A stretch of DNA of 64,000 nt from Vulgatibacter incomptus (GTDB taxonomy: Bacteria; Myxococcota; Myxococcia; Myxococcales; Vulgatibacteraceae), in assembly GCF_001263175.1 (NCBI RefSeq), contig NZ_CP012332.1:986001-1050000 (forward strand), written 5' to 3'. This document shows, piece after piece, positions 23,793 through 46,000 of this stretch. Under the pieces are notes generated by a model. That model ran no database searches and was not told where the DNA came from. It saw only the letters and a list, made by a program, of their open reading frames with translations. The translations under genes were made by a program, and so were the position numbers. How positions within the stretch are numbered: position 1 is the stretch's first letter; every line of letters starts with the position of its first letter.

Positions 23793-23890
23793 ATTTTCAG
23801 GAAATCCGGGCGAACTCCGTTCGCCCGTCGAAACGCGAGCGGGAAGGCGGCGAATGCCCCTCCCGCTCGTTCCACGTTGGAGGAAGGTCC

Positions 23891-25075: not shown

Positions 25076-25076
25076 G

Positions 25077-25959: not shown

Positions 25960-26199
25960 CGTGGCCGAAGCTCCGGGCCGACGTGCGCCCGCGAGGCGCA
26001 AATTCAAAGGACTATTCGCGCTCCCATATGATTGGAGCGCCGAAGATTTGGGTGCAGAAACTACGGCGATAAACAATTATATACCATCGTAAAATCAGTC
26101 ATTCGTCCCATTGCGTGGTTGTTTCGAATCTGATTGGATTGGTTTCCAGATGTTCAGAGACCCCCGAGATTCGAACGGTTGTCCTGCAGCGAGGTGGCG
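25960..26199 (+). promoter_or_regulatory. AT-rich leader and presumed promoter of giant lipoprotein gene 1
   Basis: After the tpiA terminator the base composition drops sharply to AT-rich for about 150 bases, unlike any nearby region. It contains an inverted repeat GCGCTCC (26018-26024) / GGAGCGC (26034-26040) and TATATA and TAAAAT hexamers (26078-26095) as possible -10 elements. None has a good -35 at standard spacing. GAGGTG at 26191 is the ribosome-binding site. Confidence 0.5.
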
Positions 26200-29100
26200 A
26201 TGATGTCCAAGCCGTGGTTCGCACGTAGTCTTGCCCTGGCCGTGCTCGCGGTCTCCGCCTGTGGCGGAAAACCCGACCTGAAAACCGTCGCGGATGGCGT
26301 GGAGATCGTCACGCTCGCGGCGAATCCTCCAACCGTCGCCGCAGGCGGACGCGTCGAAATCTCGTGGAAGACCCAGAACGCCGAGCATGTGGCGCTCGCG
26401 GCGAATGGCGCGCCGGTCGATCTCGCCGGTGCGCAGGCAGCGGACGGCAAGGTCTCGGTAGTGGTCGACGCCGAGACGGTGTTCGCCCTGGCCGCCACCG
26501 GGAAGACGCCGAGCGACGTCAAGACCCGCTCGGTCACGGTGCAGCTCGCCGGTGCTGGCGACCCGAGGATCGTCTCCTTCGCGGCGGACCCCGCCCTGGT
26601 GGACGAGGGCCAGAAGACGACTCTCACCTGGAGGACGGAGGGCGCCGAGACGATCCGCATCCTGGACGGCGCGCTGAACGTTGTCGACCTGGGCGGAGCG
26701 GCCGCGCCCGAGGGATCGGTGCAGGTCGCCGTTCCGGCCTCGACCACGTTCCGCCTCGTCGCGGAGAGCGGGACGAAGAAGGCCGAGGCCACCGCGTCGG
26801 TGAGGGTGAAAGGCACGCCCGTCGCGACGCTCACCGTCACCCCCGCGCGGATCGTCCACGGCGGATCCTCGACGCTGAGCTGGGAAGCGCAGGACGCCGC
26901 GTCGATCGAGATCGTCGACGATGAAGGCCAGACGGTCGTGGACAGCAGCACCCAGCTCACCGGCACCTTCGTGGTATCGCCCTCCTTCACCACGAGCTAC
27001 CGCCTCACCGCCGTGAACGGCTCGAAGCAGAGCGTCGCCAGCGCCGTCGTCGAGGTCGAGCCGAAGATCACCTCGTTCCTCGTGGACGATTCGTCACCGG
27101 CGGGCATCGGCGCGCCCAAGTCCCTCTCCTGGGAAGTCGGCGGCGCCCGCGAGGTGGAGGTCTCGAATCTCTCGGGCGTGACACAGACCTTCATCGGCAT
27201 GGCGGCGGCTCGTGGGACGGCGACGCTGCCGATGGGCTCCGACGGACGGTTCGAGCTGGTCGCGCGAAGCGGCTCCCTCGAGGCCCGGAAAGAGGTCTCG
27301 GCTGCGATCCTGCTCGAGCCCCGGATTGGAAGCTTCGCCGCGGAGCGGTCCACGCTGACGATCGGCGCCGACGGCCTGGCCACGGCGGTCCTGTCCTGGT
27401 CCGGCGTGGAGCGGGCCAGCCGGCTTCACCTCGTGGGCGAGACGGTGGGCGAGATCGCCGTCGACGGCAGCGCGGGCTCGGTCGAGGTCGCGCTCGAGGC
27501 CGACGAGAGCTTCACCCTCACCGCATCGAACGACTCGGGCGAGGTCAGCGCGAGCGCGACGGTGCGGCTCGTGCCGGCGGCGGCCATCGGCAGCTTCACG
27601 GCCCAGCCGGGACGGGTCGGGGCAGGGGAGTCGTTCGCGGTCTCCTGGACCACGACCGCCGCCACCTCGATCGAGCTCAGGCAGAACGGGGTCCTCGTTA
27701 CGACCGACGACGGCTCGCTCTCCTCGGGAACGGCCCATCTCGTCGCCGCCGTCGATTCCACGATCGAGCTTCGCGCGTTCAACGATGCGGGCGACTTCGC
27801 CACGCGAACGCTCTCCGTCTCCGTGGGCGCGCCGATGAACGGCGCCTTCTCCGCGACCCCGGCCCGGCTCTGGGTCGGCGGGACCGCGACCCTCGCCTGG
27901 AGGAACCTCGGTGGAACCTCGCTCTCCGTGAAGCGGGGCGGCGTGGAGATCTTCTCGACGGCCGACCTCGCTCGGATCGCCGAAGGCTCGCACACCGTCA
28001 TCGTCGACACCGCCGGGTCCACCACCTTTACCCTCGAGGTGAGGAACGGGGCCTCGCAGACCACGACCACCAGCGCCACCGTCGACGCCGGGACCGGCCC
28101 GCGGATCGCGTCGTTCTCCGTGGGACCCGCTCAGCTCCTGGCCGGCACCAACGTCAATATCTCGTGGCAGGCCAGCGACGATCCCAACGGCGTCGCGCCC
28201 GTGCTCTCGCTCGTGGACAATCGCGGTGGCACCTACACGATCCCCGCAGGCAGCTCCCGCGCGGGTTCGCTCCAGGCCCCCTTGAGCCAGGTCGGGGACT
28301 ACACCTTCACCCTGACCGCCAGCACGCCGAGCGCGGGCTCAACGCCGGTGAGCCAGTCGAAGACGGTCACGGTCGTCGGCATGCCCGCCGCGACGCTGGT
28401 CGCGACTCCGACGGTCTTCGACCAGGAGGTAGCGCCTTCGGTGACCCTGTCGTGGACGTCGTCGAACGCGGCCTCGCTGGTGCTCTACCAGCTCGATGCC
28501 GCCGGGGCCCCGATCACGCCGCCGCTCCAGACCGTCCCCGCGGCCAATCGAGCCAGCGGCAGCATGCCGGTGGTCCCGACCCGCGCCACCACCTACCGCA
28601 TCGTGGCCACCAACGCCCTCGGCAACTCGGTGAGCCCCGAGGCGACGGTCACCCTCGCGCCGACCCAGATCCTGACCTTCACTGCCACGGCGCCCACCTA
28701 TCCCGCGCCTCCGGCGCCGCCTACGGTGGCGGTCGTCGCCGGCGATCCGGCGACCCTCGCATGGACCACCAAGCGGGCCACGCGGGTCGAGCTCGATGTC
28801 GCCAGCGGTCTCCTCCTCAATCCTTCGACCAAGCCCTACGTCGACATCACGACCCTGGGCTCGACGCCGCTGCCCGTCTCGGTGGTTCCCGGCTTTGCCA
28901 CTGCGGCCGACGAGGGCTACGCGGATCTCGCATTCCCCGCCGGCTTCTCCTTCCCGTTCGGCGGGGTCGATCGGGCCTCCATTCGCGTCTTCACGAACGG
29001 CGTGGCGAGCTTCGATCTCTCTCCGCTGGCCAGCAGCACCAACACCTATACGAGCTCGGCGCTCGGTCCCGACTCGGCCAAGACCTGGGTCCACCTGGCT

Positions 29101-32100
29101 CCCTTCTGGGACGACCTCGTGATCGCCGACGCGGCCACCGGGATCCAGTGGCTGGGCGGATCGGACGCGGCCTCGGGGCTGCGCTACTTGATCGTCCAGT
29201 GGAAGGACGCGTTCTTCTTCAGCACGTCTGGCGTCAGCCTGAACTTCCAGATGGTGCTCTTCGAGGACGGAACGCACGAGTACCGATACGGCGCGATGAA
29301 CGGAGGCTCGTCCAACCAGACCCGAGCCAACGGGAGCCAGGCCGCCATCGGTACGCGGGTCAGCGGCACGGTCTTCAAGATGCTCAACGACACCGCCCGC
29401 GTCGAGGTTCCCGGCGGAATGGCGAACCGGTCCCTCGCCTTGAGCTATCCGCCTTCCCTGGACGTGAACGGGAGCTTCTCCTGGGTTCCGATGGGCGGGT
29501 CCGGAGTCGTGACCCGTACGGCCACGCTCACCGCACGAGGCAACTCGACCGCGACCTCGACCGTGACGGTCGCGGTGCATCCGCGCGCGACCGTCGCCGC
29601 GACGCCGCCCGCGCGTGAAGTGCTCCGCGGCGAGAGCTTCACGCTCGCCTGGACCAGCACGAACGCGACCGCGCTGGTGGTTCGCGATCAGTCGGGCGCG
29701 GCGCGCTGCACGGCGATCGGCGCCCAGATCGCCTCGGGCTCTTGTGTGCTGAGTGAGGCGACCGCCGGACGCCACGCCTACACGATCCGGGCGACCGGCG
29801 CCCTGGGCCACACCGTGGATCGCGTGGTCGATGTCCCCGTCTACCTCCCCTTCGGGATCGAGACCTTCGCTGTCAGCGCGCCTTCGATCGACTACGGAGG
29901 CAGCGTCACCCTCAACTGGGAGACGGGTGGCTCGAGCTCGATGACACTGACCGCGAACGGCGTCTCCATCGATCTGACCGGCAAGAGCCCGGCGGCCGAC
30001 AGCCTCGTGCACGCGCCGCAGAAGACGACGACCTACGTGCTCACCATCGAGGCCTCCGACGGTCGCACGCGCCAGGAGTCCCGCACCGTGACGGTCCGCA
30101 CCGTCGACCTCGGCGTCGTGGCGTCCGCCGACAACGTCATTCCCGGTACACCGGTCACGCTGACCTGGACGGGCACGTCCCTCGTGCCCGGCGCGGACGT
30201 GACCATCCTCGCCCCGACGCCGATGGTCCCCGTCACCTCGGCTTTCGTGGATATCAGCGCCGATCCGACCGCGACCCGGATCATCGCCCCGAACCCCAAC
30301 ACCGACGACCTCTGGGGGAGCGTGGACCTGCGGACCGCGGCGCCTGGCTTCGTCTTCCCCTACTTCGGCGAGAGGTACGAGAAGCTCCGGGTCGGGATCA
30401 AGGGGGTCATCTCCTTCGATTCCACGCTCACGGGGGGCTATTTCTACAACAACTTCACGATGCCGAAGGCCGACGTCGGATCCAACCTGTACAGCCGCGT
30501 CGCCCTGGCTCCGTATTGGGGCGACAGCCGCACGCGAGCGGTGGGAACCGATACCGGAGTCGTCACCAAGTTCGTCTCGGGCGGCTCCGGTCCGGATCAT
30601 TTCATCGTCCAGTTCCATCACCTCAAGATGGACGGGACCGGAAATGACACCGTGGACGTGAGCTTCCAGGTCGTCCTCTTCGCGGACGGCTCGTTCGAGT
30701 ACCGATACGGCGCGATGGGACCCGTGAGCAACGCGAGCGCACAGGGCGGAGCCAAGACCATCGGTTATCAGATGCCGGGCGCTCTCATGGGCTACACGGT
30801 CTTCTACGGGGGTCCGTTCACCTCGAGTCCGGCCGCCGCTCTGGCGTTCCCGGGCGGGATCTCGAACAAGGCCTTCCGTTGGGAGCCCGTGGACCCCGGT
30901 ACGACCAGCATCGTGGTCCAGCCGTCGGCGACCACGGACTACACCATCTGCGCGATCGTCGACGGACACCGGGAGTGCAGGACGGTAACGGTCCACGCCG
31001 ACTTCGTCATCGACTCGTTCGCGACGAGCTCGGCGACGATCAACCGGGGTCAGACGGTGGACCTCACCTGGGCCACGAAGGGCGCGGAGGCCCTCTCGCT
31101 GAAGGCCAACGGCGTCGAGATCGCGAACGGGTCGACCGTCGCCATGACCGCGGGGAGCCTGACGGTCGCGCCGACCACGACCACGACCTACGTGCTCGAG
31201 CTCCGGAACAACTTCCTCAACCGGACGATCACCTCGACCAAGACCGTGACGGTGAAGCAGTTCTCGGTCGGCCTGCAGGCCTCGGCGTCGAACGTGGTTC
31301 CGGGTGGTCCGGTCACGCTCTCGTGGACGGCGGGCATGTTCTCGGGAGACTCGATGGCCTTGACCACGCCGATGGCCGAGGTGACGTCGCCCTTCGTGGA
31401 TATCTCCGGGCAGCCCGGCGCTACCCAGATCATCGGCGCCGGTGCGGACACCACCATGGCCGATCTCCCCTTCGTCGGCGGGTTCACGTTCAATTATCTG
31501 GGGACCCCGTACAGCGGGGTGCGCGTGTCGACCGACGGCTTCCTGACCTTCGACGGAAGCGCGACCACGTCCTCGTCCAACTCCACGCTGCCGAGCTCGA
31601 GCAACAAGAAGGTGCACCTGGCGGCGTTCTGGAAGGACCTGCACACCCGCACGAACGGACGGGTCCATGCCCTCGCCACCCCGACCGAGGTCATCGTGCA
31701 GTGGAGCCGGATCAGCATGTACACCGGCTCCAGCGCGGCGGAGCACGACCTGAACTTCCAGATCGCGCTCCGGTCCGACGGCTCCTTCGAGTACCGATAC
31801 GGGACCATGGCGGGCCTCTCCGGTACGAACACCTCGTCGAGCTGCTACCCGAGCACCTGCGCGAACGAGGCCAACGCCTCCTCCGCCACCATCGGCTACC
31901 AGGATCCGACCGGCGTGGCCGGATACCTGCTCTACATGGGCGGCACGAGCAACTCGGCGAGCAACTTCCCCTTCGCGGGTGGCCTCTCGAACCGCTCGTT
32001 CCGGTTCACGCCGTCGGCCGGCTCCGGCTCCGTGGTCGTGAATCCAGGGGACACGACGGGTTACCGGATCTGCGCGATCTCGGGGACGTTCATCGAGTGC

Positions 32101-34353
32101 TCGGATCTCGTGACGGTCACGTCGGAGTGGAAGATCGTCTCCTTCGATTCGAACGCGACCCAGGTGGACGTGGGGCAGCCGGTCACGCTCTCCTGGGTAA
32201 CCACGGGCGGCGACGGCGTGCGTGTGACCGCGACTGCCGGAACCACGACGACACCGCTCGACGTGTCCAGCGCGGGCGTCTCGTCGGGTAGCGTCACGGC
32301 GTACCCGACCCAGACGACGACCTATACCTTCGAGCTCCGCTCCATGGGTCGAGGCAAGACCACGACGAAGTCCGTGACGGTCCGCACCGTCGGCGTCACG
32401 CTCGACGCGTCGACCACGACCGCTCTGCCGGGAGAGCCGGTGACCCTCACCTGGGATGTCAGCGGTCTCGACGGTGGGACACCGACGATGAGCTCCAACA
32501 TCGTGGCGCTTTCGGAGGTGACCACCGCCTACGAGGACGTCACCACCTTCGGAGGCACGTTGGTGACGGGCCTCGGGCTCGGCGCGTCGACGACCAACGG
32601 TCCCAACGCCACGGTCGCGTTCCCTGCCGGGTTCGCCTTCCCGTACTTCGGACAGAACTACGACCGGATCCGGGTCGGCAACCAGGGTGTCCTCTCGTTC
32701 GATACCTCCCTGGACGGCTACCGCTTTTCGAACTTCCAGTTCCCGTCGACCGACTCGAACGGGATCAAGGTCCACCTCGCGCCGTTCTGGGGTGACGTCC
32801 AGACCGCCGCGTCCGGGAGCGCCTCGCATCCGGACGGTGGCGTCTACACCAAGTTCGTCCAGGTCCCTGGAGGCGTCGACTACTTCATCATCCAGTACCA
32901 CCACCACCGGATCTACAGCGCTGCCGACGGCACGACCGACCTGAACTTCCAGGTCGTGCTCTTCAAGGATGGGACGGTGGAGTACCGCTACGCGGACATG
33001 CTCCCGCTCACCGGAAACAACCCCGTCCTGGGTGGGGCGAAGACGGTCGGCATCCAGAGGCCGGGCGGCGGCTGGGGACTCAACCTCCACTACGGCGGCG
33101 CCTACACCAGCACGCCGACGGCGAGTACGACGTATCCCGGCGGCTTCGCTCATCGCTCGTTCCGATTCGAGCCGCTGACCTCCTCGACCGGATCGCGGAC
33201 CGTCATTATGAACCAGACCACGACGTACTACGTCTGCGGTGGACAGAGCGGATACTCGGAGTGCAAGGAGGTCACGATCGTCGTTCCTTCGGCCGGCGCC
33301 TCGGCGATCACCGAGCTCATGCTGGATCCGGACGGCGGCCCCGGCGGACAGTGGTTCAAGGTCCGGAACCTCGACAGTCGTCCGCAGAACCTCGAAGGCT
33401 GGGAGCTGGTCTCCAACGCCGGAAGCTTCACGATCGGCTCGCCTCTCGTGATCCCGGCGGGCGGCTTCGCGACCTTCGCCGCGTCCTCCGCGGTCGGGTT
33501 CACCCCGAGCGCCATCTACGGCAACAGCCTCGCCCTCAGTCCGGCGGGTGACAGCCTCGCGCTGAAGGCCGGAACGAGGGTGATCGCCTCAGTCACCTGG
33601 GGCTCCTCCTGGACGATCCCCCACGGGACCACGCTCGTCCTCGACCCCAGCTACCAGAAGCGCGGGACGGTCTCCAACGACGCCGCCAACCGGTGGTGCG
33701 CCGGGACCGCAGAAGGGTCGCCCGGATCCCTCGGCAGGGGGTGCAGGTTCACCACCTACGACGTGGACCTCGCCTCGGCGGCTCCGGTGATCGACATCTC
33801 GACGATCGGCGCCCCGGTCCCAGGGATCACCGGCTACCTCACGAAGGGTGACGTCAGCCTGAGCTTCCCGTTCCCGTTCTTCGGCGGGAGCTCCTCCACC
33901 CTGGGCGTGAGCTCGAACGGCTTCGTCACCATGGCCGGCGGCCTGGCCGCTTCGTATTTCACGAACGCCTCGCTGCCGTCGACGTCCCTCCCGGCGAGCC
34001 TCGGGATCGTCGCCGGCTTCTGGACCGATCTGAACTTCGTCACCGGTCAGAGCTGGGCCAAGTACGCCGAGGTCACCCGGGGTACCAATCGAGTCGCGGT
34101 CTTCCATTGGTACCGGTGGAAGCCCAACAGCTCGAGCACCGGCGCCTACGTCTCCGTCCAGATCCAGCTTTGGGACAACGGCGACATCGTCACGCACCAG
34201 GTGGAGTCGTCCGGTGACACCACATATACGAAGGGAAGCTCGGCGACGATCGGGATCCAGGCGCCGGGGACTTCGAGCCCGGCCACGCTCCTGTACTCGT
34301 ACAACACGGCCTCGGTGGAGGCGGGTACCGTCATCCACTACCTCAAGAAGTAG
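26200..34353 (+). CDS. Giant Ig-like/nidogen-like/lamin-tail lipoprotein, copy 1
   Basis: The 2,717-aa predicted lipoprotein has signal MMSKPWFARSLALAVLAVSA, then Cys-Gly-Gly. The start at 26200 aligns with copy 2; the next ATG at 26203 is equally possible. About 17 Ig-like domains of 80-95 residues follow, each with a strand like VTLSWTT and an end like TTTYTLTA. Domains at about 825, 1303, 1688 and 2064 appear split: after the first half comes a beta module of about 200 residues (FPYFG, VGNQGVLSFD, HLAPFWGDVQT, NFQVVLFKDG, EYRYG), then the Ig half resumes. These inserts resemble nidogen (NIDO) modules. A lamin-tail domain (about 2369-2514, ITELMLDP, LEGWELVS) and a fifth, different nidogen-like module end the protein. 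Probably cell-surface or matrix; function unknown. Confidence 0.88.
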   Translation: MMSKPWFARSLALAVLAVSACGGKPDLKTVADGVEIVTLAANPPTVAAGGRVEISWKTQNAEHVALAANGAPVDLAGAQAADGKVSVVVDAETVFALAATGKTPSDVKTRSVTVQLAGAGDPRIVSFAADPALVDEGQKTTLTWRTEGAETIRILDGALNVVDLGGAAAPEGSVQVAVPASTTFRLVAESGTKKAEATASVRVKGTPVATLTVTPARIVHGGSSTLSWEAQDAASIEIVDDEGQTVVDSSTQLTGTFVVSPSFTTSYRLTAVNGSKQSVASAVVEVEPKITSFLVDDSSPAGIGAPKSLSWEVGGAREVEVSNLSGVTQTFIGMAAARGTATLPMGSDGRFELVARSGSLEARKEVSAAILLEPRIGSFAAERSTLTIGADGLATAVLSWSGVERASRLHLVGETVGEIAVDGSAGSVEVALEADESFTLTASNDSGEVSASATVRLVPAAAIGSFTAQPGRVGAGESFAVSWTTTAATSIELRQNGVLVTTDDGSLSSGTAHLVAAVDSTIELRAFNDAGDFATRTLSVSVGAPMNGAFSATPARLWVGGTATLAWRNLGGTSLSVKRGGVEIFSTADLARIAEGSHTVIVDTAGSTTFTLEVRNGASQTTTTSATVDAGTGPRIASFSVGPAQLLAGTNVNISWQASDDPNGVAPVLSLVDNRGGTYTIPAGSSRAGSLQAPLSQVGDYTFTLTASTPSAGSTPVSQSKTVTVVGMPAATLVATPTVFDQEVAPSVTLSWTSSNAASLVLYQLDAAGAPITPPLQTVPAANRASGSMPVVPTRATTYRIVATNALGNSVSPEATVTLAPTQILTFTATAPTYPAPPAPPTVAVVAGDPATLAWTTKRATRVELDVASGLLLNPSTKPYVDITTLGSTPLPVSVVPGFATAADEGYADLAFPAGFSFPFGGVDRASIRVFTNGVASFDLSPLASSTNTYTSSALGPDSAKTWVHLAPFWDDLVIADAATGIQWLGGSDAASGLRYLIVQWKDAFFFSTSGVSLNFQMVLFEDGTHEYRYGAMNGGSSNQTRANGSQAAIGTRVSGTVFKMLNDTARVEVPGGMANRSLALSYPPSLDVNGSFSWVPMGGSGVVTRTATLTARGNSTATSTVTVAVHPRATVAATPPAREVLRGESFTLAWTSTNATALVVRDQSGAARCTAIGAQIASGSCVLSEATAGRHAYTIRATGALGHTVDRVVDVPVYLPFGIETFAVSAPSIDYGGSVTLNWETGGSSSMTLTANGVSIDLTGKSPAADSLVHAPQKTTTYVLTIEASDGRTRQESRTVTVRTVDLGVVASADNVIPGTPVTLTWTGTSLVPGADVTILAPTPMVPVTSAFVDISADPTATRIIAPNPNTDDLWGSVDLRTAAPGFVFPYFGERYEKLRVGIKGVISFDSTLTGGYFYNNFTMPKADVGSNLYSRVALAPYWGDSRTRAVGTDTGVVTKFVSGGSGPDHFIVQFHHLKMDGTGNDTVDVSFQVVLFADGSFEYRYGAMGPVSNASAQGGAKTIGYQMPGALMGYTVFYGGPFTSSPAAALAFPGGISNKAFRWEPVDPGTTSIVVQPSATTDYTICAIVDGHRECRTVTVHADFVIDSFATSSATINRGQTVDLTWATKGAEALSLKANGVEIANGSTVAMTAGSLTVAPTTTTTYVLELRNNFLNRTITSTKTVTVKQFSVGLQASASNVVPGGPVTLSWTAGMFSGDSMALTTPMAEVTSPFVDISGQPGATQIIGAGADTTMADLPFVGGFTFNYLGTPYSGVRVSTDGFLTFDGSATTSSSNSTLPSSSNKKVHLAAFWKDLHTRTNGRVHALATPTEVIVQWSRISMYTGSSAAEHDLNFQIALRSDGSFEYRYGTMAGLSGTNTSSSCYPSTCANEANASSATIGYQDPTGVAGYLLYMGGTSNSASNFPFAGGLSNRSFRFTPSAGSGSVVVNPGDTTGYRICAISGTFIECSDLVTVTSEWKIVSFDSNATQVDVGQPVTLSWVTTGGDGVRVTATAGTTTTPLDVSSAGVSSGSVTAYPTQTTTYTFELRSMGRGKTTTKSVTVRTVGVTLDASTTTALPGEPVTLTWDVSGLDGGTPTMSSNIVALSEVTTAYEDVTTFGGTLVTGLGLGASTTNGPNATVAFPAGFAFPYFGQNYDRIRVGNQGVLSFDTSLDGYRFSNFQFPSTDSNGIKVHLAPFWGDVQTAASGSASHPDGGVYTKFVQVPGGVDYFIIQYHHHRIYSAADGTTDLNFQVVLFKDGTVEYRYADMLPLTGNNPVLGGAKTVGIQRPGGGWGLNLHYGGAYTSTPTASTTYPGGFAHRSFRFEPLTSSTGSRTVIMNQTTTYYVCGGQSGYSECKEVTIVVPSAGASAITELMLDPDGGPGGQWFKVRNLDSRPQNLEGWELVSNAGSFTIGSPLVIPAGGFATFAASSAVGFTPSAIYGNSLALSPAGDSLALKAGTRVIASVTWGSSWTIPHGTTLVLDPSYQKRGTVSNDAANRWCAGTAEGSPGSLGRGCRFTTYDVDLASAAPVIDISTIGAPVPGITGYLTKGDVSLSFPFPFFGGSSSTLGVSSNGFVTMAGGLAASYFTNASLPSTSLPASLGIVAGFWTDLNFVTGQSWAKYAEVTRGTNRVAVFHWYRWKPNSSSTGAYVSVQIQLWDNGDIVTHQVESSGDTTYTKGSSATIGIQAPGTSSPATLLYSYNTASVEAGTVIHYLKK

Positions 34354-34427: not shown

Positions 34428-34634
34428 GAAGCGGCTGTCAGGATTTTCCATTTCGCGCGCCGCAGAACTTGCAAGCCATCGAGATCTCGATGGATTCGAA
34501 TGCATGAAACTTTCTGTGTTGCGTGAAGTTATCTGTGTTTCAAATCTTGTTGCGCGTTGAGACCGGGTCTGCTCGGATTCGCTGCTCTGAAGTGGATTCT
34601 TGGTTTTTTGAATTGTCTCGCAACGAGGTCGGAG
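34428..34634 (+). promoter_or_regulatory. Leader and presumed promoter region of giant gene 2
   Basis: This AT-richer stretch holds two direct repeats TCTGTGTT (34513-34520 and 34532-34539, start-to-start 19 bp, about two helical turns) nested between TGAAAC (34505-34510) and GTTTCA (34537-34542). Such an arrangement could bind a dimeric regulator. GAGG at 34625 and GGAG at 34631 precede the ATG. No clear -35/-10 pair was found. Confidence 0.45.
34476..34493. promoter_or_regulatory. Perfect 18-bp palindrome upstream of giant gene 2
   Basis: CCATCGAGATCTCGATGG is self-complementary over all 18 bases with no loop, so it is more likely a protein-binding site than a transcript hairpin. It lies 142 bp upstream of the start codon. 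Confidence 0.4.
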
Positions 34635-37600
34635 ATGACGTCGAAGTCCTGGTTTGCAGGTTTTCTGGTCGTGGCGGCGTTGGCCGCCTCGGCATGTGGG
34701 GGTGGCGGTAAGGACCCCGTGAAATCCACGGCGGAGCGCGTGGAGATCGTCGATCTGATCGCGACACCCGAGCGTGTGGAGGCTGGCGCCAGCGTCGAGG
34801 TCTCTTGGAAGACGAAGCACGCCGAGTCCGTCGCGCTCACGGCCAACGGCGCGCCCGTCGAGCTCGGTGATTCGTCGGCCGAGGGCGGCGCGGTCTCCGT
34901 CGTGGTCGAGGCCGAGACGGTCTTCGAGCTCACCGCCACCGGCAAGGAGGCGGACGACGTCGCGACCCATCGGGTCACGGTGAAGCTCCTCGGCGACCAG
35001 CCGGAGATCCTCTCGTTCACGGCCAATCCCAGCGAGGTGGAGCAGGGGGATCAGACGACGATCTCCTGGAAGACCCACGGCGCCGACACCATTCGCCTCC
35101 TCGACGGCGCGCTGAACGACGTGGATGTCGGCGGGCAGCCGGCGGCAGAGGGCTCCGTGACGGTGCAGGTCTCCACCTCGACGACCTACAAGCTCGTGGC
35201 TTTGAAGGGCGAGGAGTCTGCCGAGGCGACCGTGGTCGTGAAGGTGAAGGGTGCGCCCACCGCGACCCTGACCGGCCCGGCGCAGATCGACCATGGCCAG
35301 TCGGCGACCCTTCGGTGGGAGGCCACGGACGCGGACTCGGTCTCGATCGTCGACGACGAGGATCGGATCGTCGTCGCGAGCACCACCGAGTTCAGCGGCT
35401 CCATCGTCGTCTCTCCGTCCTTCACCACAACCTATCGACTCGTCGCAGTCGGCAACGGCAAACAGGCCATCGCGTCCGCCATGGTCGCGGTGAAGCCCGT
35501 CATCACCACCTTCGAAGCCACCGACTCCGCGCCTGTCGCCGTCGGAGCGCCGAAGTCGCTGGTCTGGGCAGTGGGCGGGGCCCGCGAGGTCGAGATCTCC
35601 AACCTCTCCGGTGAGACGTCGACCTTCACGGGAGACGAAGCGGTGCAGGGTGCCGACTCGATGCCCGTTGGCGTGGATGGGAGGTTCCGTCTCGTGGCTC
35701 GCAGCGGCGCCCTCGAGACCAGCCGGGAGCTCACCGTCGAGATCCTCACCACTCCGGCGATCAGCAGCTTCGAGGCGGCGCGTCCGATCCTGACCGTCGA
35801 CGCCGAAGGCCGCGCCACCGCCACCCTCACGTGGTCCGGCGTGGCGGGCGCGACGCGGCTGCGGCTCGACGGCGAGGGCATCGGCTCCATCGACATCGGC
35901 GATCAGGGCCTCCAGGGAGGCTCCGTGGACGTGGTGCTCGAGGCCGACGAGACCTTCACCCTCACGGCGTCGAACGACTCGGGCGACGTGGCCGCAACCG
36001 CGACGGTACGCCTCGTCCCCGAAGCGACGATCGTCGCCTTCGGTGCCGCGCCGGTACGGGTGGGGGCCGGGGAGCCTTTCGTCCTCTCGTGGGTCACCGC
36101 CGGCGCCGTCTCGATCGAGCTACTCCGGGGCGGCGAGCTCGTCCCGACCGAGGTCGACGCGGTCGCCTCGGGTGAGGTGGAGCTGCAGATCGCCTCGGAT
36201 TCGGCATTCGAGCTCCGCGCGTACAACGGGGCGGGCGACTTCGCCTCGAGCGTGCTCGCGGTCACCGTCGGCGCACCTGTGAACACCTCGTTCACCGCGA
36301 CGCCGGACCACCTCTGGGTGGGTGAAACGGCCATTCTCGCTTGGCAGAACCTCGGCGGGACCTCGCTCTCCGTGAAGCGGGGCAGCGTCGAGCTCTGCGC
36401 CACCACTGTACTCGCCGAGGTCGCCGACGGCACCTGCCTCGCCACCCTCGACCAGGAGGGGAGAGCCACCTTCACTCTCGAGGTGATCAACGGGGCAGGG
36501 CAGAGGACCTCTGCGTCCGTCACCGTCGAGGCCGGGACGGGCCCGCGGATCGCGTCGTTCTCAGTCGGGCCTGCGCAGCTCCTCGTCGGCACGAACGCGA
36601 CGATCTCGTGGACCACGACGGACGATCCCGACGGAACCACGCCGACCCTCGCCCTGGTGGACGATCGCGGCGGAAGCTATTCGATCCCGGAGGGAAGCGA
36701 GCACCAGGGATCGCTACCGGCCGTCCTCGCCGAGGTAGGTGACTACACCTTCACGCTCACCGCGAGCACGCCGAGCCTTGCCTCCACCCCCGTGAGCCAG
36801 TCGAAGACGGTGACCGTCGTCGGCCTTCCGGCCGCCACCCTGGTGGCATCGCCGGTGGTCTTCGACACCGACGTCGCCGACCACGTGACGCTCTCGTGGA
36901 CCTCTGCGAACGCCGCGTCGCTGGTCCTCTACCAGCTCGACGGCAGCGGGAATCCGATCACGCCGGCGCTCCTCACGGTTGCCGCAGGCGACCGGTCTGC
37001 CGGCAGCTTCCCCGTCGTGCCGGCCCGCGCAACGACCTATCGGATCGTGGCGACCAACGCCCTGGGCAACTCGGCGCAGGCCGAGGCCTCGGTGACCATC
37101 GCGCCGCCCGAAATCCTGAGCTTCACCGCGGAGCCCCTCGAAGTTGTCGCGGGCGACCAGGTGACGTTCGAGTGGACCACCAAGATGGCCACGGGCACTT
37201 CGCTCAGCGTGTTCGAATCCGGGCTCACGTTCGGCGAGTCGGAGGATTCCTACGTCGATATCAAGGCCAACGGCGGGACGTTCCTTCCCCTCTGGCAGTG
37301 CAACAGCACCTTCGAAACCAACGACCAGGGGTGCGCGACGCTCTCCTTCCCGTCCGGGTTCACCTTCCCCTTCGGCGGCGCGGATCGCAAGGCGATGGTC
37401 GTCTATGTGAACGGTGTGGTGAGCTTCGACCTGGCCCGGACCGGCAACAGCTATTCGACCACCACTTTCCCCACGACGAGCTCGACCTACCACTACGCCC
37501 ATCTCGCGCCCTTCTGGGTCGATCTGAGGTTCCTGCCCCCCTCCACCGTCGGCGACATCTGGTACAAGCTCGGCTCGGATGACCGGGGCCGGTATCTCAT

Positions 37601-40600
37601 CGTCCAGTGGAACCACGTAGCGTTCACGAACCAGTTGGGCGACCTGAACTTCGAGATCGTCCTCCGGGAGACCGGCGAGTTCGAATACCGGTACGGCTCG
37701 ATGACGGACGCCTCCCGGGCGAACGGCTCGACCGCGACGATCGGCTACCAGACGCCGAATCAGTCCCGCTACCATGTGATCAGCCGCCTCAGCAACGTCC
37801 CGGGCGGCCTCGCGAATCGAAGCTTCCGATACTCGGCCCTTCCGAGCTTCGAGGCGAACGACAGCTACGTGTGGACACCATCGGTGCCCGGCCAGAGGAC
37901 GGTCACCCTCACGGCGTTCGGGGCCGGGATCGCCACGGCCAGCGTCGACGTCACGATCCATCCGCGGGCCACGCTCGCCGTGACGGCGCCGTCGGGCGAG
38001 GTCCTCGAAGGCGAGGACTTCTCGCTCGGCTGGACCTCCTCGAACGCCTCGGCGGTCGAGGTGCTCGACGAGAGCGGCGCGATCCGGTGTACCGCCGCCG
38101 GCGACGCGATCGCGTCGGGGCGCTGCGTGCTGAGCGAGGCGGTCGAAGGCGTCTACGAGTACACCGTTCGTGCGACCGGAGCGCTCGGGAGCGAGGTGGA
38201 GCGGGTCGTCTCGGTCCAGGTCTACCACCGCTTCGAGATCGAGGAGTTCACGGTAAGTGAATCGGAGGTCGACTACGGCACACCCGTCACCTTGACCTGG
38301 GTGTCCGTCGGCGCCTCGGAGGTGACGCTGACGGCGAACGGGGTCGGGCTCGATCTCGGAGGCAAGAGCGTCGACGGCGACAGCATCGCCCACACGCCGG
38401 CGCGGCAAACCGTCTACAAGATCACCTTCTCGGCGGCCGATGGACGCACGCGCGAAGCGACCCGCTCCGTGACCGTCCGCACCTTCTCCGACTTCGACCT
38501 GACGGCGTCCTCGGACGATGTCGCGCCGGGTACGCCGGTCACGTTGAGCTGGTCCGGAGCCTCGCTCGTGCCCGGCCAGGACGTGACCTTCCTCGCGGCG
38601 GCGCCGATGGTGCCCGTCACCTCGGCCTACGTGGACATCAGCGCCGATCCTGGCGCGACCCGGATCATCGCGGCGAACGTGACGAGCGACGATACCTGGG
38701 CGACCGTCAATCTTGCGACGGCAGCCCCCGGTTTCACGTTCCCCTACTTCGGCGGGACCTACGACAAGCTCCGGGTTGGCATCAAGGGGATCGTCTCCTT
38801 CGACACCACGCTCACCGGTAGCACCTACTACCACAACCAGCGTCTCCCGAAGGCCGACGACTCCGAGGGCCGGTACGGCCAGGTCGCGCTGGCCGCGTAC
38901 TGGGGCGATCTGCAGACCCGCACCAACGGCGGGGTCTTCACCAAGTTCGTGCGGGGCTCGGACGGCCCCGACGCCTTCATCATCCAGTATCACCACATGA
39001 CCGTCTGGTCGGCGACCACCGCGGACATCAACCTCCAGATCGTCCTGTACGCGGATGGCTCCATGGAATACCGCTATGGGAGCTTCAGCAACACCGACGC
39101 GGGTCACACCAACAGCACCCAGGGAGCCGCCAAGACCATCGGTTACCAGATGCCCGGTGGCATGATCGGTTACACGGTCCATTACGGCGGAGTGTGGACG
39201 AGCTCTCCCCCCGCCTCCGGAATCTTCCCCGCCGGGATCTCGAACAAGGCCTTCCGTTGGGAGCCGATGGACCCCGGGACGACCAGCATCGTGGTTCAGC
39301 CGTCTGAGACCACCGACTACACCGTCTGCGCGATCGTCGACGGATACCGGGAGTGCAGAACGGTCACTGTCCGGGCCGACTTCTCCATCGACTCGTTCAC
39401 GACGAGCTCGGCAGGCATCGACCGGGGTCAAACGGTGGACCTCACCTGGGCCACGAAGGGCGGGGATGCGCTCTCTCTGAAGGCCAACGGCGTCGAGATC
39501 GCCAACGAGACCGACGTCGCCATGGCAGCGGGGAGCCTGACGCACACGCCGACCGCTACCACGACGTATGTCCTGGAGCTCCGAAACGACTACCTCCAGC
39601 GCACGATCACCTCGACGAAGACCGTCACCGTGACGCAGTTCGAGCTTTCGCTGACGGCGTCCGCGCCGTCCGTCGACCCGGGCGGATCGGTGACGCTCTC
39701 GTGGACTGCCGACATGTTCGCGGGCGAGCCGGTGGCGCTGACCACGCCCATGACTGAGGTCCTGCCGCCCTTCGTGGACATCTCCACGACCGGCGCTACC
39801 GAGATCATCGGCGCCAGTTCGGACTCCACCATGGCCGACGTTGCGTTCGCCGACGGGTTCACGTTCAACTACCTCGGGAAGCCGTACAGCGCGGTGCGCG
39901 TGTCGACCGACGGCTTCCTGACCTTCGATGCCACCGCCACCACGGCTGCGAGCAACTCCACGCTGCCGAGCACGGGCAACAAGAAGGTGCACCTGGCGCC
40001 GTTCTGGAAGGACCTCCACACCCGTACGAACGGAAGAGTCTACGCCCTCGCCACCGCAACGCAGGTCGTCGTCCAGTGGAGCCACATCAGCATGAACGCC
40101 GGCTCCACGGCCACGGCGGAGCATGACCTGAACTTCCAGGTCGTGCTCGGGGCCGACGGCTCCTTCGAGTACCGCTACGGGACGATGGCCGGTCTCACGG
40201 CGCCGAACACGTCGTCGAACTGCTACCCGACCACCTGCCTGAACGAGGCGAACGCTTCGTCGGCCACCATCGGCTACCAGGAACCGACCGGCGTCGCGGG
40301 ATCGCTGCTCTACATGGGCGGCACGAGCAACTCGGCGAACAACTTCCCCTTCGCGGGAGGCCTGTCGAACCGCTCGTTCCGGTTCACGCCGTTCGCCGGT
40401 TCCGGCTCCGTGGTCGTGAATCCAGGGGACACGACGGGTTACCGGATCTGCGCGATCTCGGGGACCTTCATCGAGTGCACGGATCTCGTGACGGTCACGT
40501 CGGAGTGGAAGATCCTCTCCTTCGGCGCGAGCGCGTCGGTGGTGGAGCCCGGCCAGCCGGTCACGCTCTCCTGGGCGACCGTGGGCGGTGACGACATCCG

Positions 40601-42725
40601 CTTGAGCGCAACGGTAGGGACCACGGTGACGCCGTTGGACGTGTCCGGTCAGGCGGTGGGGTCGGGCAGCTTCTCCGCCACCCCGACCGCGAAGACCACG
40701 TACACCTTCGAGCTCCGGTCGATGGGCCGGATCAAGACCGCGACCCGGACCGTGGAGACCCGCAACGTCGCCGTGTCCCTCTCCGCGTCGACCACGACCG
40801 CTCTGCCGGGCGAGCCGGTGACCCTGACCTGGGACGTCACCTCCCTCGGCGGAGGGACGCCGGCGATGAGCTCCAACATCGTCGTGTCGGAGGTGGCCTC
40901 TGCCTACGAGGACATCACGACCTCGGGAGGGACGCTGCTGCAGAACCTCGGCCTGGGCGCCTCGACCAGCACGGGATACGCCACCGTGGACTTCTCCGCG
41001 GTCGGATTCAGCTTCCCGTACTTCGGTCAGATCTACGACCGGATCAAGGTGGGCAACCAGGGCATTCTCTCGTTCGACACCACCCTGGACGGCTACCGCT
41101 GGTCGAACTACTCGCTCCCCTCGACGGACACGAACGGGATCAAGGTCCACTTCGCGCCGTTCTGGGGTGACGTCCAGACCGCGGCGGCGGGGAGCGCGGC
41201 GCATCCGGACGGCGGCGTCTATGCCAAGTTCGTCTCGGAGCCCGGGACCGTCGATCACTACATCATCCAGTACCACCACCACCGGATCTACTCGGCCACA
41301 GACGGCGCCACCGACCTGAACTTCCAGGTGGTGCTCTTCGCCGACGGCGCGGTGGAGTACCGCTACGGGGACATGCTCCCGCTCACCGGGAACAACCCGG
41401 TCCTGGGCGGCTCGAAGACGATCGGCTTCCAGAAGCCGGGCGGCGGCTGGGGCTACAACGTCCACTACGGCAACTCCTCGACCACCACCTACCCCGGCGG
41501 CTTCGGTCACCGCTCGTTCCGGTACGAGCCGATGGATCCGAGCGGCTCGCGGACCGTCACCGCAAGCAAGACCACGACGTACAATCTCTGTGCCACCGAG
41601 GCCGGATACACGGAGTGCAAGGAGGTCACGGTCGTCGTTCCGGTGGCGGGTTCCGCGGCGATCACCGAGCTCATGCTGGACCCTGCGGGCGGCCCCGCGG
41701 CACGGTGGTTCCAAATCCGCAACCTCGAGAAGACTCCGATCGACCTCGAGGGCTGGGAGATCGTCTCCGGCGAGGGATCCCACGTGATCGCGGCGCCAGT
41801 TGTCGTCCCCGGCGGCGGCTTCGCCACCTTCGCTGCCTCCGGCGCGGCAGGCTTCACGCCCAACGTCACGTGGGGCAGCGACCTCGCGCTCGATCCGGCC
41901 GGTGGCAGCGTGGCGCTGAAGGCCGGCTCCTCGGTTGTCGCCTCCGTCACCTGGGGCCCGACCTGGACGATCCCTCACGGGATCACGCTCATCCTCGACC
42001 CCAGCTATCACGAGAAGGGCGCGGTCTCGAACGACGCCTTCTCGCGCTGGTGCCGCGGGACTGCGTCTGGTTCGCCGGGCTCGCTCGGCAAGGGCTGCAG
42101 GTTCCAGGGCTACGATCTCGATCTCGGCCAGCCCGTTCCCTTCATCGACATCCGGCAGACCGGCGTCACGGTGGATTCGATGAAGGCCAACGGCGTGAGG
42201 ACCACCGTAGACCTTCCGTTCTCCATGCCGATCTTCGGCACGAGCGCCAACCGCATCATCGTGAGCTCGACCGGCTGGATTTCCTTCAATGCCAGCCAAA
42301 CGCTGACGGGAGGTCACTACTTCGCGCCGACCGCACTCCCTCGTCCGTCGACTGACACGCCGGAGGGCCCGATCTTCGCCGCCTTCTGGGACGACCTCGG
42401 CTGCAGCCAGACTGGCGCATGGGACTGGCAGTACGAGCACCGGACGCTAGGAGCGAACCAGGTCACGATCCTGCAGTGGAACAACTACGCCCGCTGCAGC
42501 AACACCGGCGGCACGACATTCCAGGTCCAGCTCTCGTCGAACGGCGACATGGCCGTGGTCTTCCGCGACATCGTGGCCGCCGCGGGCAGCTCGGCATGGG
42601 ACGTGTACAACGGGAGCAACGCCTGGATCGGCCTCGAGGGGCCGGATCGGACCCAGCCGATTACGGCGCTCTACAAGACGGTGAAGCCGCTCGCGGGTCG
42701 CTCGTTCCGCTTCATCAAGAGGTAG
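34635..42725 (+). CDS. Giant Ig-like/nidogen-like/lamin-tail lipoprotein, copy 2
   Basis: The 2,696-aa paralog of copy 1 has its own signal peptide MTSKSWFAGFLVVAALAASA before the lipid-modified Cys. Ig-like domains run from about residue 30. Split Ig domains with nidogen-like inserts begin at about 826, 1287, 1669 and 2045. The lamin-tail domain is at about 2341-2489 (ITELMLDP, IDLEGWEIVS). The closing half of the last three split domains has paired Cys (YTVCAIVDGYRECRTV, YRICAISGTFIECTD, YNLCATEAGYTECKE), placed to bridge adjacent strands. The C-terminal module (about 2502-2696, LPFSMPIFGTSANRI, AAFWDDLGC, TILQWNNYARCSNTGG) is shared with copy 3 but not copy 1. The ATG at 34635 is preceded by GAGG and GGAG. 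Confidence 0.88.
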   Translation: MTSKSWFAGFLVVAALAASACGGGGKDPVKSTAERVEIVDLIATPERVEAGASVEVSWKTKHAESVALTANGAPVELGDSSAEGGAVSVVVEAETVFELTATGKEADDVATHRVTVKLLGDQPEILSFTANPSEVEQGDQTTISWKTHGADTIRLLDGALNDVDVGGQPAAEGSVTVQVSTSTTYKLVALKGEESAEATVVVKVKGAPTATLTGPAQIDHGQSATLRWEATDADSVSIVDDEDRIVVASTTEFSGSIVVSPSFTTTYRLVAVGNGKQAIASAMVAVKPVITTFEATDSAPVAVGAPKSLVWAVGGAREVEISNLSGETSTFTGDEAVQGADSMPVGVDGRFRLVARSGALETSRELTVEILTTPAISSFEAARPILTVDAEGRATATLTWSGVAGATRLRLDGEGIGSIDIGDQGLQGGSVDVVLEADETFTLTASNDSGDVAATATVRLVPEATIVAFGAAPVRVGAGEPFVLSWVTAGAVSIELLRGGELVPTEVDAVASGEVELQIASDSAFELRAYNGAGDFASSVLAVTVGAPVNTSFTATPDHLWVGETAILAWQNLGGTSLSVKRGSVELCATTVLAEVADGTCLATLDQEGRATFTLEVINGAGQRTSASVTVEAGTGPRIASFSVGPAQLLVGTNATISWTTTDDPDGTTPTLALVDDRGGSYSIPEGSEHQGSLPAVLAEVGDYTFTLTASTPSLASTPVSQSKTVTVVGLPAATLVASPVVFDTDVADHVTLSWTSANAASLVLYQLDGSGNPITPALLTVAAGDRSAGSFPVVPARATTYRIVATNALGNSAQAEASVTIAPPEILSFTAEPLEVVAGDQVTFEWTTKMATGTSLSVFESGLTFGESEDSYVDIKANGGTFLPLWQCNSTFETNDQGCATLSFPSGFTFPFGGADRKAMVVYVNGVVSFDLARTGNSYSTTTFPTTSSTYHYAHLAPFWVDLRFLPPSTVGDIWYKLGSDDRGRYLIVQWNHVAFTNQLGDLNFEIVLRETGEFEYRYGSMTDASRANGSTATIGYQTPNQSRYHVISRLSNVPGGLANRSFRYSALPSFEANDSYVWTPSVPGQRTVTLTAFGAGIATASVDVTIHPRATLAVTAPSGEVLEGEDFSLGWTSSNASAVEVLDESGAIRCTAAGDAIASGRCVLSEAVEGVYEYTVRATGALGSEVERVVSVQVYHRFEIEEFTVSESEVDYGTPVTLTWVSVGASEVTLTANGVGLDLGGKSVDGDSIAHTPARQTVYKITFSAADGRTREATRSVTVRTFSDFDLTASSDDVAPGTPVTLSWSGASLVPGQDVTFLAAAPMVPVTSAYVDISADPGATRIIAANVTSDDTWATVNLATAAPGFTFPYFGGTYDKLRVGIKGIVSFDTTLTGSTYYHNQRLPKADDSEGRYGQVALAAYWGDLQTRTNGGVFTKFVRGSDGPDAFIIQYHHMTVWSATTADINLQIVLYADGSMEYRYGSFSNTDAGHTNSTQGAAKTIGYQMPGGMIGYTVHYGGVWTSSPPASGIFPAGISNKAFRWEPMDPGTTSIVVQPSETTDYTVCAIVDGYRECRTVTVRADFSIDSFTTSSAGIDRGQTVDLTWATKGGDALSLKANGVEIANETDVAMAAGSLTHTPTATTTYVLELRNDYLQRTITSTKTVTVTQFELSLTASAPSVDPGGSVTLSWTADMFAGEPVALTTPMTEVLPPFVDISTTGATEIIGASSDSTMADVAFADGFTFNYLGKPYSAVRVSTDGFLTFDATATTAASNSTLPSTGNKKVHLAPFWKDLHTRTNGRVYALATATQVVVQWSHISMNAGSTATAEHDLNFQVVLGADGSFEYRYGTMAGLTAPNTSSNCYPTTCLNEANASSATIGYQEPTGVAGSLLYMGGTSNSANNFPFAGGLSNRSFRFTPFAGSGSVVVNPGDTTGYRICAISGTFIECTDLVTVTSEWKILSFGASASVVEPGQPVTLSWATVGGDDIRLSATVGTTVTPLDVSGQAVGSGSFSATPTAKTTYTFELRSMGRIKTATRTVETRNVAVSLSASTTTALPGEPVTLTWDVTSLGGGTPAMSSNIVVSEVASAYEDITTSGGTLLQNLGLGASTSTGYATVDFSAVGFSFPYFGQIYDRIKVGNQGILSFDTTLDGYRWSNYSLPSTDTNGIKVHFAPFWGDVQTAAAGSAAHPDGGVYAKFVSEPGTVDHYIIQYHHHRIYSATDGATDLNFQVVLFADGAVEYRYGDMLPLTGNNPVLGGSKTIGFQKPGGGWGYNVHYGNSSTTTYPGGFGHRSFRYEPMDPSGSRTVTASKTTTYNLCATEAGYTECKEVTVVVPVAGSAAITELMLDPAGGPAARWFQIRNLEKTPIDLEGWEIVSGEGSHVIAAPVVVPGGGFATFAASGAAGFTPNVTWGSDLALDPAGGSVALKAGSSVVASVTWGPTWTIPHGITLILDPSYHEKGAVSNDAFSRWCRGTASGSPGSLGKGCRFQGYDLDLGQPVPFIDIRQTGVTVDSMKANGVRTTVDLPFSMPIFGTSANRIIVSSTGWISFNASQTLTGGHYFAPTALPRPSTDTPEGPIFAAFWDDLGCSQTGAWDWQYEHRTLGANQVTILQWNNYARCSNTGGTTFQVQLSSNGDMAVVFRDIVAAAGSSAWDVYNGSNAWIGLEGPDRTQPITALYKTVKPLAGRSFRFIKR

Positions 42726-43084: not shown

Positions 43085-46000
43085 ATGTTGAAGATCTGGC
43101 GTACGAGTTGTCTTGCCCTGATGGCGCTCGCCGTCTCGGCCTGTGGAAGCAAGGACACGGGTCAGGCGCAGGAGCCTGGCGATGTCGAGATCGTCGCTTT
43201 CGTCGCGCGCCCGGACCGAGTCGAGGCGGGCGGTAGCGTTGAGGTCTCCTGGGAGACGACGAACGCCGACCGCCTCTCGCTGACCGCCAACGGCGGTGAC
43301 GTGCAGCTCGGCGCAGCCGCCATCCAGGCGGGCTCCGTCTCGGTGGTCGTCGACGTTGAAACCACCTTCGAGCTGACGGCCACGGGGAAGAAGGATGGCG
43401 ACGTCAAGACTGCCACCGCCACCGTAAAGATCCTCGGAGACGCGATCGAGATCCTCTCGTTCACCGCGAACCCGACCGAGGTGGAGGAGGGGAAGGAAAC
43501 GACGCTCTCCTGGAAGACCCACGGCGCGGAAGCGATCCGTATCGTTGACGGCGCACTCAACGAGGTGGACCTCGGCGGCCAGGCGGCGCCGGAGGGCTCC
43601 GTGAAGGTGGCCGTCGCAAGCTCGACGACCTTCAAGCTCGTGGCGTCGAAGGGCGAGGAGAAGGCGGAGGCGACCGTCACGGTGAAGGTGAAGGGTTCTC
43701 CCGTCGCCAACCTGAGCGCCGATCCGGCGAGGATCGTCCACGGCAGCACCTCGACCCTGACGTGGCAGACGGAGGACGCCGTGTCGGTCGCGATCGTGGA
43801 CGAGGAGGACCGGCCCGTCTTCGAGAGCAGCACGCAGCTCAGCGGGACCTTCGAAGTGACGCCCTCGTTCACCACGACCTACCGGCTCACCGCGATCGGC
43901 GCCACGAAGCAGGCCGTCGCTTCTGCGTTCGTCGAGGTGGCGCCGAAGATCGTCTCCTTCGCTCCGGTGGATCCCTCCGCCGCCGGGGTCGGCTCTCTCA
44001 AGGCTCTCACCTGGGTGGTAGGCGGCGCCCGCGAGGTCGAGGTCTCGAACCTCGCCGGTGTGGCCCAGACCTTCACCGGTGACGAAGCCGCGCAGGGATC
44101 CGTCTCGCTGCCCATGAGCGCGGACGGCAAGTTCAAGCTGGTGGCCCGGAGCGGAACCCTCGAGGCGTCGAGCGAGCTGACGATCGACATCATGCTCGAA
44201 CCGGTGATCGGCAGCTTCGAGGCTGCGCGCCCGGTGCTCACGATCGGCGACGACGGACAGGCGACGGCGGTGCTCTCGTGGTCGGGCGTCGAGCGGGCGA
44301 TCGGGCTTCGGCTGGTCGGCGAGAACCTCGGCGAGATCGCCATTGGCGGTGACGCCCTCGTCTCTGGCTCGGTGGAGGTGGTGCTCCAGGCCGACGAGAC
44401 CTTCACTCTCATGGCTTCGAACGAATCCGGCGACGTTGCCGCCACCGCCGCGGTTCGGCTCGTTCCTGCGGCGGCGATCGAGTCCCTGGCCGCGCTTCCG
44501 GGCAGGGTTGGGGTAGGGGAGGCCTTTACTGTCTCGTGGGCGACCACCGGCGCCACCTCGATCCAGCTCAGGCAGGACGGTGCGGTCGTCGCGACCGCCG
44601 ACGATGCGGTCGCCGCTGGCGCGGTCGAGCTCGTTGCCGCCACCAACTCGGCGATCGAGCTCCGGGCGTTCAACGACGCGGGCGACTTCGTCTCGAGGAC
44701 CCTCACCGTCACAGTCGGGGCTCCAACGAACACCTCCTTCACCGCGACTCCGAATCGCGTCTGGGTCGGCGGGACCGCCACCCTCGCCTGGCAGAACCTG
44801 GGCGGCACGTCGCTCTCCCTGAAGCGGAGTGGGGAGGAGATCTTCGCGACGACCGATCTCACGCGGATCGCCGACGGCTCCTACCTCGCCACGATCGAGA
44901 CGGCCGGCTCCTCCACCTTTACCCTCGAGGTGGTAAACGGCGCATCGCAGCGCACGACCGCGTCCATCGTCGTCGACGCAGGGACCGGTCCGCGGATCGC
45001 GGCGTTCTCGGTCGGGCCCGCGCAGCTCCTGGTCGACACGAATGCCACGATCTCGTGGCAGACCACCGACGATCCGGACGGGGCCACGCCCGTCCTCTCT
45101 CTGACGGACGACCGGGGTGGTACCTACCCGATTGCCGCCGGAAGCGAGCACGCCGGGTCGCTCCAGCGTGCGCTGGGCCAGGTCGGCTCGTACACCTTCA
45201 CGCTCACCGCGAGCACGCCGAGCGCGGGTTCCACGCCGGTGAGTGAGACGCGTTCGGTCACGGTTGTCGGAGTCCCCGCGGCGACGCTGGTGGCGACGCC
45301 GCAGGTCTTCGACACCACGGTGGCGCCCACCGTGACGCTCTCGTGGACCTCGGCAAACGCCGAGTCGCTTCTGCTCTACCAGCTCGATGGCAGCGGCGCG
45401 CCCGTCACGCCCGCGCTCCTCACGGTTCCCAGGAGCGATCGCGCCAGCGGCAGCTTCCAGGTCGTTCCGGCCCGGGCTACCACCTATCGGATCGTGGCGA
45501 CCAACGCCCTCGGCACCTCGGTCTCGGCCGACGCGAGCGTGACGATCGCTCCGCCCGAGATCCTCAGCTTCACCGCGACTCCCGTCGAGGTCCTCGTGGG
45601 CGATGGAGTGACGCTCGAGTGGACCACCAAGATGGCCTCTGGCGTTTCGCTGAGCGTTCTCCCCGGCGGGCTCGTCTTCTCGGAGACCTCGGCGCCGTAC
45701 ATCGACGTCCAGGCGGCAGGCGGCACCAAGCACGACCTGACCCAGACCTGGAGCACCCTCACGACCAACGACGAGGGGTTCGACATCTTGACGTTCCCGG
45801 GCACCTTCAGGTTCCCGTTCGGCGGTCAGACCTACAACCGCATCATGATCTACGCGAACGGGATCGCCAGCTTCGATTTCGGCCGCACCGGAACGATATC
45901 GAGCTTCAGCAACACCAACTTCCCTTCGGGGACGACGAGCCCCTGGGCGCACATCGCGCCGTTCTGGGACGATCTCTTCTTCCCCAACAGCGCGACGAAT

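Follow-up and report, generated by a model that had tools for sequence, protein, structure and literature searches.

Three giant genes, termed G1, G2 and G3, are found in tandem on the forward strand of the window, which is the whole stretch of 64,000 nucleotides that was analysed. The genes are tandem DNA repeats in register, with a spacing of ~8.4 kb and 60-89% identity per 300-base stretch. The tandem likely stems from local gene duplication, and its region (26134-51172) is a likely trouble spot for draft assemblies; the genome that carries it consists of one contig of 4,350,553 bases. Additional paralogues are present elsewhere in the genome. The genes and their C-terminal features are:

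26134..34353, + strand: G1, giant open reading frame, 2739 amino acids as listed; the start is likely the ATG of residue 23 or 24
33304..33603, + strand: lamin tail domain (LTD, PF00932) of G1, above cut-off
33790..34350, + strand: fifth module of G1, C-terminal, not nested
34557..42725, + strand: G2, paralogue of G1, 2722 amino acids as listed, same architecture
42138..42722, + strand: terminal module of G2, not nested
43085..51172, + strand: G3, paralogue of G1, 2695 amino acids, same architecture
50588..51169, + strand: terminal module of G3, not nested

The order of domains is the same in the three proteins. A lipoprotein-like N-terminus is followed by about nine Ig-like domains, four nested units (N1 to N4), the LTD and a terminal module. 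Two intact Ig domains separate N1 from N2, and one each separates N2 from N3 and N3 from N4. Read by eye, the N-termini of G1, G2 and G3 display a hydrophobic stretch that closes in SAC-G, which by the lipobox rule reads as a lipoprotein signal. The proteins are probably lipid-anchored and exposed, and we hold surface exposure itself to be quite likely. The LTD (PF00932, cut-off 34.3 bits) scores 41.7, 36.6 and 35.6 bits in G1, G2 and G3 in a search of the genome, all above the cut-off; in the protein scan G1 (35.3 bits) passes, and G2 (33.5) and G3 (28.7) fall below. An NCBIfam search returned no family, and the Pfam scan of G1-G3 listed no vWA family.

The glycolysis genes gap, pgk and tpi are situated at 22791-25844, and the giant genes start a few hundred bases downstream. 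None of the neighbouring genes of G1-G3 hints at a function. A relative at another locus (L001) has different neighbours, with four neighbouring open reading frames that lead to a TPP enzyme and a tRNA nucleotidyltransferase-like protein. A search of phage DNA with one stretch of 1401 bases gave no match.

The nested units and their module

The first-pass annotation had described four Ig-like domains in each giant protein that are broken off, continued by a nidogen-like module of about 200 residues and then resumed. This is confirmed by the translations of G1-G3, where 12 such units are visible, four in each protein. The annotation had placed the feature at 28672-33300; that interval covers G1 alone, and the units of G2 and G3 lie outside it. 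A unit consists of an Ig-like start of 43-57 residues, a module of 197-217 residues and an Ig-like end of 36-46 residues. The module is recognizable in the nested units by the motifs FPYFG, HLAPFWGD, FQVVLF.DG and EYRYG. The units are:

28663..29583, + strand: G1 N1, module ~28834-29445 with an Ig half on each side; the weakest case
30103..31002, + strand: G1 N2, N half 30103-30237, module 30238-30888, C half 30889-31002 with a Cys pair; part of the first AlphaFold2 model
31261..32127, + strand: G1 N3, module ~31390-32013
32389..33285, + strand: G1 N4, module ~32524-33174; the match of the C half is misplaced
37104..37964, + strand: G2 N1, module ~37248-37838
38484..39380, + strand: G2 N2, module ~38622-39266
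39639..40505, + strand: G2 N3, module ~39768-40391
40767..41645, + strand: G2 N4, module ~40899-41531
45551..46429, + strand: G3 N1, module ~45695-46303; second AlphaFold2 model
46949..47833, + strand: G3 N2, module ~47087-47722; no match of the C half in the single-sequence search
48092..48958, + strand: G3 N3, module ~48221-48844
49220..50095, + strand: G3 N4, module ~49352-49987

Likeness of the module to the NIDO family (PF06119, a profile of 186 positions with a Pfam gathering cut-off of 25 bits) varies between units. Four of the 12 exceed the cut-off (27.6-31.8 bits), six fall below it (13.6-20.8 bits) and two have no match at E 0.1. The whole-protein Pfam scan gave NIDO with 55.4 bits in G1 and listed no NIDO match for G2 and G3. 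As the best stretches cover parts of the profile (positions 2-59 in nine units and 80-116 in one), the module is termed nidogen-like.

Modules are also found outside Ig domains. The terminal module of each giant protein comes after the lamin tail domain and has no Ig halves; one of these three matches PF06119, below the cut-off. In other families of the order, modules stand beside different kinds of domains, with no recognised Ig halves. Two adjacent genes of the same genome (L029, G000:C1:4237500-4247500) encode one module each near the N-terminus, also devoid of recognised Ig halves; the module is followed by repeats that we take to resemble CARDB and putative-Ig domains. These two proteins end in a glycine-rich tail with a hydrophobic stretch and arginines. 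To judge from such sequences, the module is independent of Ig halves.

Predicted reconstitution of one Ig domain from two flanks

An Ig profile was built from 12 intact Ig domains of G1-G3, with borders set by hand and the nested domains excluded. It matches the N half in all 12 units (i-E 1.7e-7 to 9.7e-4). The C half is matched in place in 10 of the 12 (i-E 0.04-1.6), with no match significant singly; of the exceptions, G3 N2 has no match and the match of G1 N4 falls within the module. Equally weak matches to the profile occur within modules of G2, at residues 947-981 (i-E 0.52) and 1777-1802 (i-E 2.6).

When the flanks are joined without the module, the Ig score rises by 5.2-14.2 bits over the better single half in every unit. 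Shuffles of the last 60 residues, 60 per unit at the same step size, served as the null and gave mean gains of 2.5-4.2 bits. The gain was reached by none of the 60 shuffles in seven units; it was reached in G1 N1 (18 of 60), G3 N2 (13), G2 N3 (9), G1 N4 (5) and G2 N4 (1). The joined match of G1 N1 does not use the C half, as the best joined match spans columns 9-43 alone. A smaller run, with a null of coarser step and 15 shuffles, left nine of the 12 units unreached. The gains of all 12 units add up to 107.3 bits; the shuffles total 40.8 bits on average and 52.9 bits at most, and none of the 60 attains the observed sum.

Profiles of 24 units with hand-set borders (the 12 of the window, three that belong to two further proteins encoded in its genome, and nine found at loci in a single genome of the same family) were compared with the intact Ig profile by hhalign. 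The joined flanks match with an E of 1.4e-15. The N halves alone occupy Ig columns 2-38 (E 5.9e-11), the C halves alone columns 48-88 (E 2.1e-6), and the module alone does not match (E 0.12). Complementary Ig halves are thus found for the units taken together, but not for every one of them. A break point that recurs 12 times over the three proteins, as had been claimed, holds in this sense: since the halves align to complementary Ig columns, the break, for the set, sits at the same place, between strand C and strand E.

An AlphaFold-type prediction had been proposed as a check on the nesting, and two units were modelled with AlphaFold2 from an input alignment of 16 rows from two genomes. The models were judged from secondary structure, confidence and the first and last aligned residues. 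In both, the flanks are predicted as strands that follow one another as they do in an intact Ig domain; in neither do they form separate domains or part of the nidogen-like fold, the outcome named beforehand as contrary to nesting.

The first model covers an intact Ig domain, G1 N2 and a further intact Ig domain (window 29851-31260; mean pLDDT 90.9, pTM 0.82). Strands of the intact domain are predicted at residues 2-8, 12-14, 19-26, 30-35, 49-54, 60-67 and 73-83. Those of the nested domain are at 85-91, 102-110 and 118-120, followed by the module at ~130-346 and then by strands at 353-356, 362-370 and 373-382. The flank strands correspond to A, B and C before the module and to E, F and G after it. 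Solved three-domain tandems of Ig or FN3 domains (titin, NCAM, fibronectin) align with 225-248 residues over approximately residues 1..470 of the model at 10-16 A rmsd, a value that is expected as the chains are bent.

The second model is of G3 N1 alone, the most divergent class (window 45551-46429; mean pLDDT 84.6, pTM 0.79). For all 50 chains listed, the aligned range extends from residue 1-6 to residue 290-293, with 73-81 residues aligned. The best match is 1l0q_A 304..384 (Z 9.8, 2.3 A, 77 residues, model 1..293). The same segment of 5no8_A, 257..336, matches both an intact Ig domain (model 3..84, Z 10.0, 2.0 A) and the split one (model 3..293, Z 8.8, 2.3 A). A Z of 8 is reached by 18 of 996 chains for this model, a figure to be read with the aligner's notes, by which a best Z of 7-8 is common for models that have no match. 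Structurally, the host Ig domain is best matched by an archaeal surface-layer protein. Foldseek returned no match of the nested unit at E 0.001 or better, and sequence searches of the PDB gave no credible relative (with G1 alone, a single match at E 0.21; with the profile, one at E 0.88).

In the two of the 12 units that were modelled, both halves are therefore predicted to form one beta-sandwich. The claim of a nested rather than serial arrangement is upheld at the level of prediction, by the AlphaFold2 models together with solved Ig-like domains that align to both ends at once. With the profile comparisons, the architecture of Ig halves around a module is considered very probable.

The C half carries a C-x8-C pair in nine of the 12 units of the window, namely N2-N4 of G1, G2 and G3 (e.g. 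30889-31002), and a Cys pair is also found in the C half of seven of 12 relatives. The three N1 units of G1-G3 do not have it. The nine intact domains Iga, Igb and Igc are devoid of cysteine, and the three Igz domains have two, located elsewhere. In the first model the cysteines, at positions 367 and 376, are on strands F and G of a predicted F-G hairpin, where a disulphide across the hairpin is plausible.

Relatives and the history of the units

Among paralogues and relatives, the number of nested units per protein ranges from 1 to 4. Several relatives stop directly after the returning C half: L028 (1028 amino acids), L035 (1042 amino acids) and L063 (a frame of 1083 amino acids). The split gene L036 (G001:C22) also stops after the returning Ig half. 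This relative is split over two frames by a TAG stop and represents either a decayed gene or an assembly error.

Modules are diverse, with a mean p-distance of 0.63. Over 24 units, divergence of the module and divergence of the flanks are correlated (Mantel r 0.625; maximum of 2000 permutations 0.312). The differences in unit number and the correlated divergence fit, as sequence patterns, with a duplication of whole units in which host halves and module would be inherited together. A tree was made of 39 modules, those of L002, of the f4 proteins described below and of one of the three L065 proteins being set aside. The six terminal modules group together (96/90), and neither the first nor the later nested modules form one group each. 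One single insertion event is not established by the tree, as two later-nested modules of G145 group with terminal, non-nested ones (97/93).

Alignment searches found matches in at least 50 of 147 genomes of the class and in at least 73 of 195 genomes of the phylum, which include the 147; up to 16 candidates per genome were scored in the class and up to 12 in the phylum, and the distribution is a lower bound. Among the matches listed, both Ig halves are covered (query ~2-10 to 282-295) only in G000 and G001, of the own family, and in G145 and G146, of one other family of the class.

Genomes of f4, a further family of the class (L066-L070), carry clustered genes with open frames of ~1,090-1,430 amino acids that display Ig domains and two modules; by eye, a lamin-tail-like sequence is situated between both modules. 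Flanks were compared in 11 of the 12 f4 proteins (five genomes), L070_-_9194 being set aside. The N flanks resemble Ig domains (E 5.4e-5 against nested units, 4.9e-4 against intact Ig), and the C flanks of the 11 proteins have no recognised Ig likeness (E 0.52-0.77).

Proposed architecture and known systems

The reading that best explains the data as a whole, and which we regard as fairly likely, is that of nested Ig units in a lipid-anchored, adhesin-like chain that displays its modules sideways. The chain would leave an Ig-like beta-sandwich after strand C, form a complete nidogen-like module of ~200 residues and return to complete the sandwich with strands E, F and G. Nested Ig domains in the outer half of the chain are spaced by one or two intact ones, and the lamin-tail domain and the non-nested module follow at the end; to judge from the lipobox-like N-terminus, the chain may be anchored in the outer membrane. 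The Ig chain would be a stalk, and the modules sticking out from it may serve as a series of sites for contact with a partner cell, matrix or prey. This display or contact role is inferred from the kinds of domains and from the pilus proteins RrgA and GBS104; we give an adhesion or matrix role somewhat less than an even chance.

A pull on the chain would be carried by strands A and G of the host Ig domain and would bypass the inserted module. The earlier suggestion of a stiff rod is possible. It can also be proposed, tentatively and with rather low probability, that the proteins are force-shielded multivalent stalks: modules would be nested in load-bearing Ig domains, many of which have paired cysteines (C-x8-C or C-x10-C) across their predicted F-G hairpin, and with tension along the Ig chain they would stay folded and branch off at near-regular steps. 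If true, this would represent a repeated, branched adhesin architecture.

Nesting has been weighed against a serial arrangement, whereby the flanks either add strands to an enlarged nidogen-like domain or form two small domains of their own, with an incidental likeness to Ig. The short C halves (36-46 residues each in the window units) have weak single-sequence Ig matches, and AlphaFold2 can favour familiar folds, both of which suit such a reading. However, the profile of each half matches complementary Ig columns, the two models have the Ig strand order, solved single domains are matched from both ends, and modules without recognised Ig flanks exist; on these grounds a serial arrangement is judged very improbable. 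A domain swap has a still fainter likelihood. Here the N half of one unit would complete the C half of another unit or molecule, so that units interlock in a chain or fibre. Split domains can swap, several units per chain offer partners, and prediction of one unit as a single chain is blind to the exchange, but there are relatives with one nested unit, e.g. L028 and L035, in which a swap within the chain is impossible because each has a single unit. The predicted strand order and the structural matches also describe a sandwich closed within one unit, and the swap is judged unlikely on both counts.

A further alternative keeps the nested architecture but regards the modules as spacers or as parts of a coat or matrix that have no specific partner; the proteins would then form a surface coat and not an adhesin. 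We find this rather unlikely. The three similar tandem paralogues and the additional paralogues in the genome, the diversity of the modules, and the archaeal surface-layer protein as best structural match of the host Ig domain are in its favour. Insertion into a stalk domain would be a costly way to make a spacer, which is an argument only, and the inserted domain of RrgA is the proposed binding domain (PMC7893114); neither point is decisive. The same review states that direct evidence for collagen binding by the inserted RrgA domain is lacking (PMC7893114).

If the chain is nested as proposed, a full module sits in almost every other Ig domain of its outer half, which suggests insertion as a repeated design for branched surface proteins. 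The 1 to 4 nested units of paralogues and relatives offer a natural series for the effects of nesting on mechanics and avidity, and serial domain annotation would misread such proteins.

Several known systems share parts of this design. NIDO, the family of nidogen, tectorin, MUC4 and others, is matched by 10 of the 12 nested units, four of them over the Pfam cut-off; in animal proteins it is a serial domain, unlike the nested modules here. The MG6 domain of complement C3 and the alpha-2-macroglobulins is a beta-sandwich split by inserted parts, but inserts and protein type differ from those of G1-G3. GhpA of Aureispira, a giant Ig-rich bacterial surface protein, has Ig-like domains in a very long chain, as in G1-G3, and fragments of it also turn up as structural matches of the host Ig domain in the second model. 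Repeated nesting with a nidogen-like insert, or nested bacterial modules, was not found in the open-licence papers searched. A precedent is found in RrgA and GBS104, where a vWA-type domain, D3, interrupts the sequence and the two regions that flank it fold back to form the Ig-like D1 and D2 (PMC7893114). As in the giant proteins, it is the chain of split Ig-like domains in a surface protein that takes up the module (PMC7893114). RrgA and GBS104 have one vWA insert at the tip of a sortase-anchored pilus protein, whereas G1-G3 carry four nidogen-like inserts per chain, with intact Ig domains between them, in lipoprotein-like proteins. Insertion into Ig domains is thus already known, with a single insert in RrgA and GBS104, and the repeated nidogen-like form represents a new variation.
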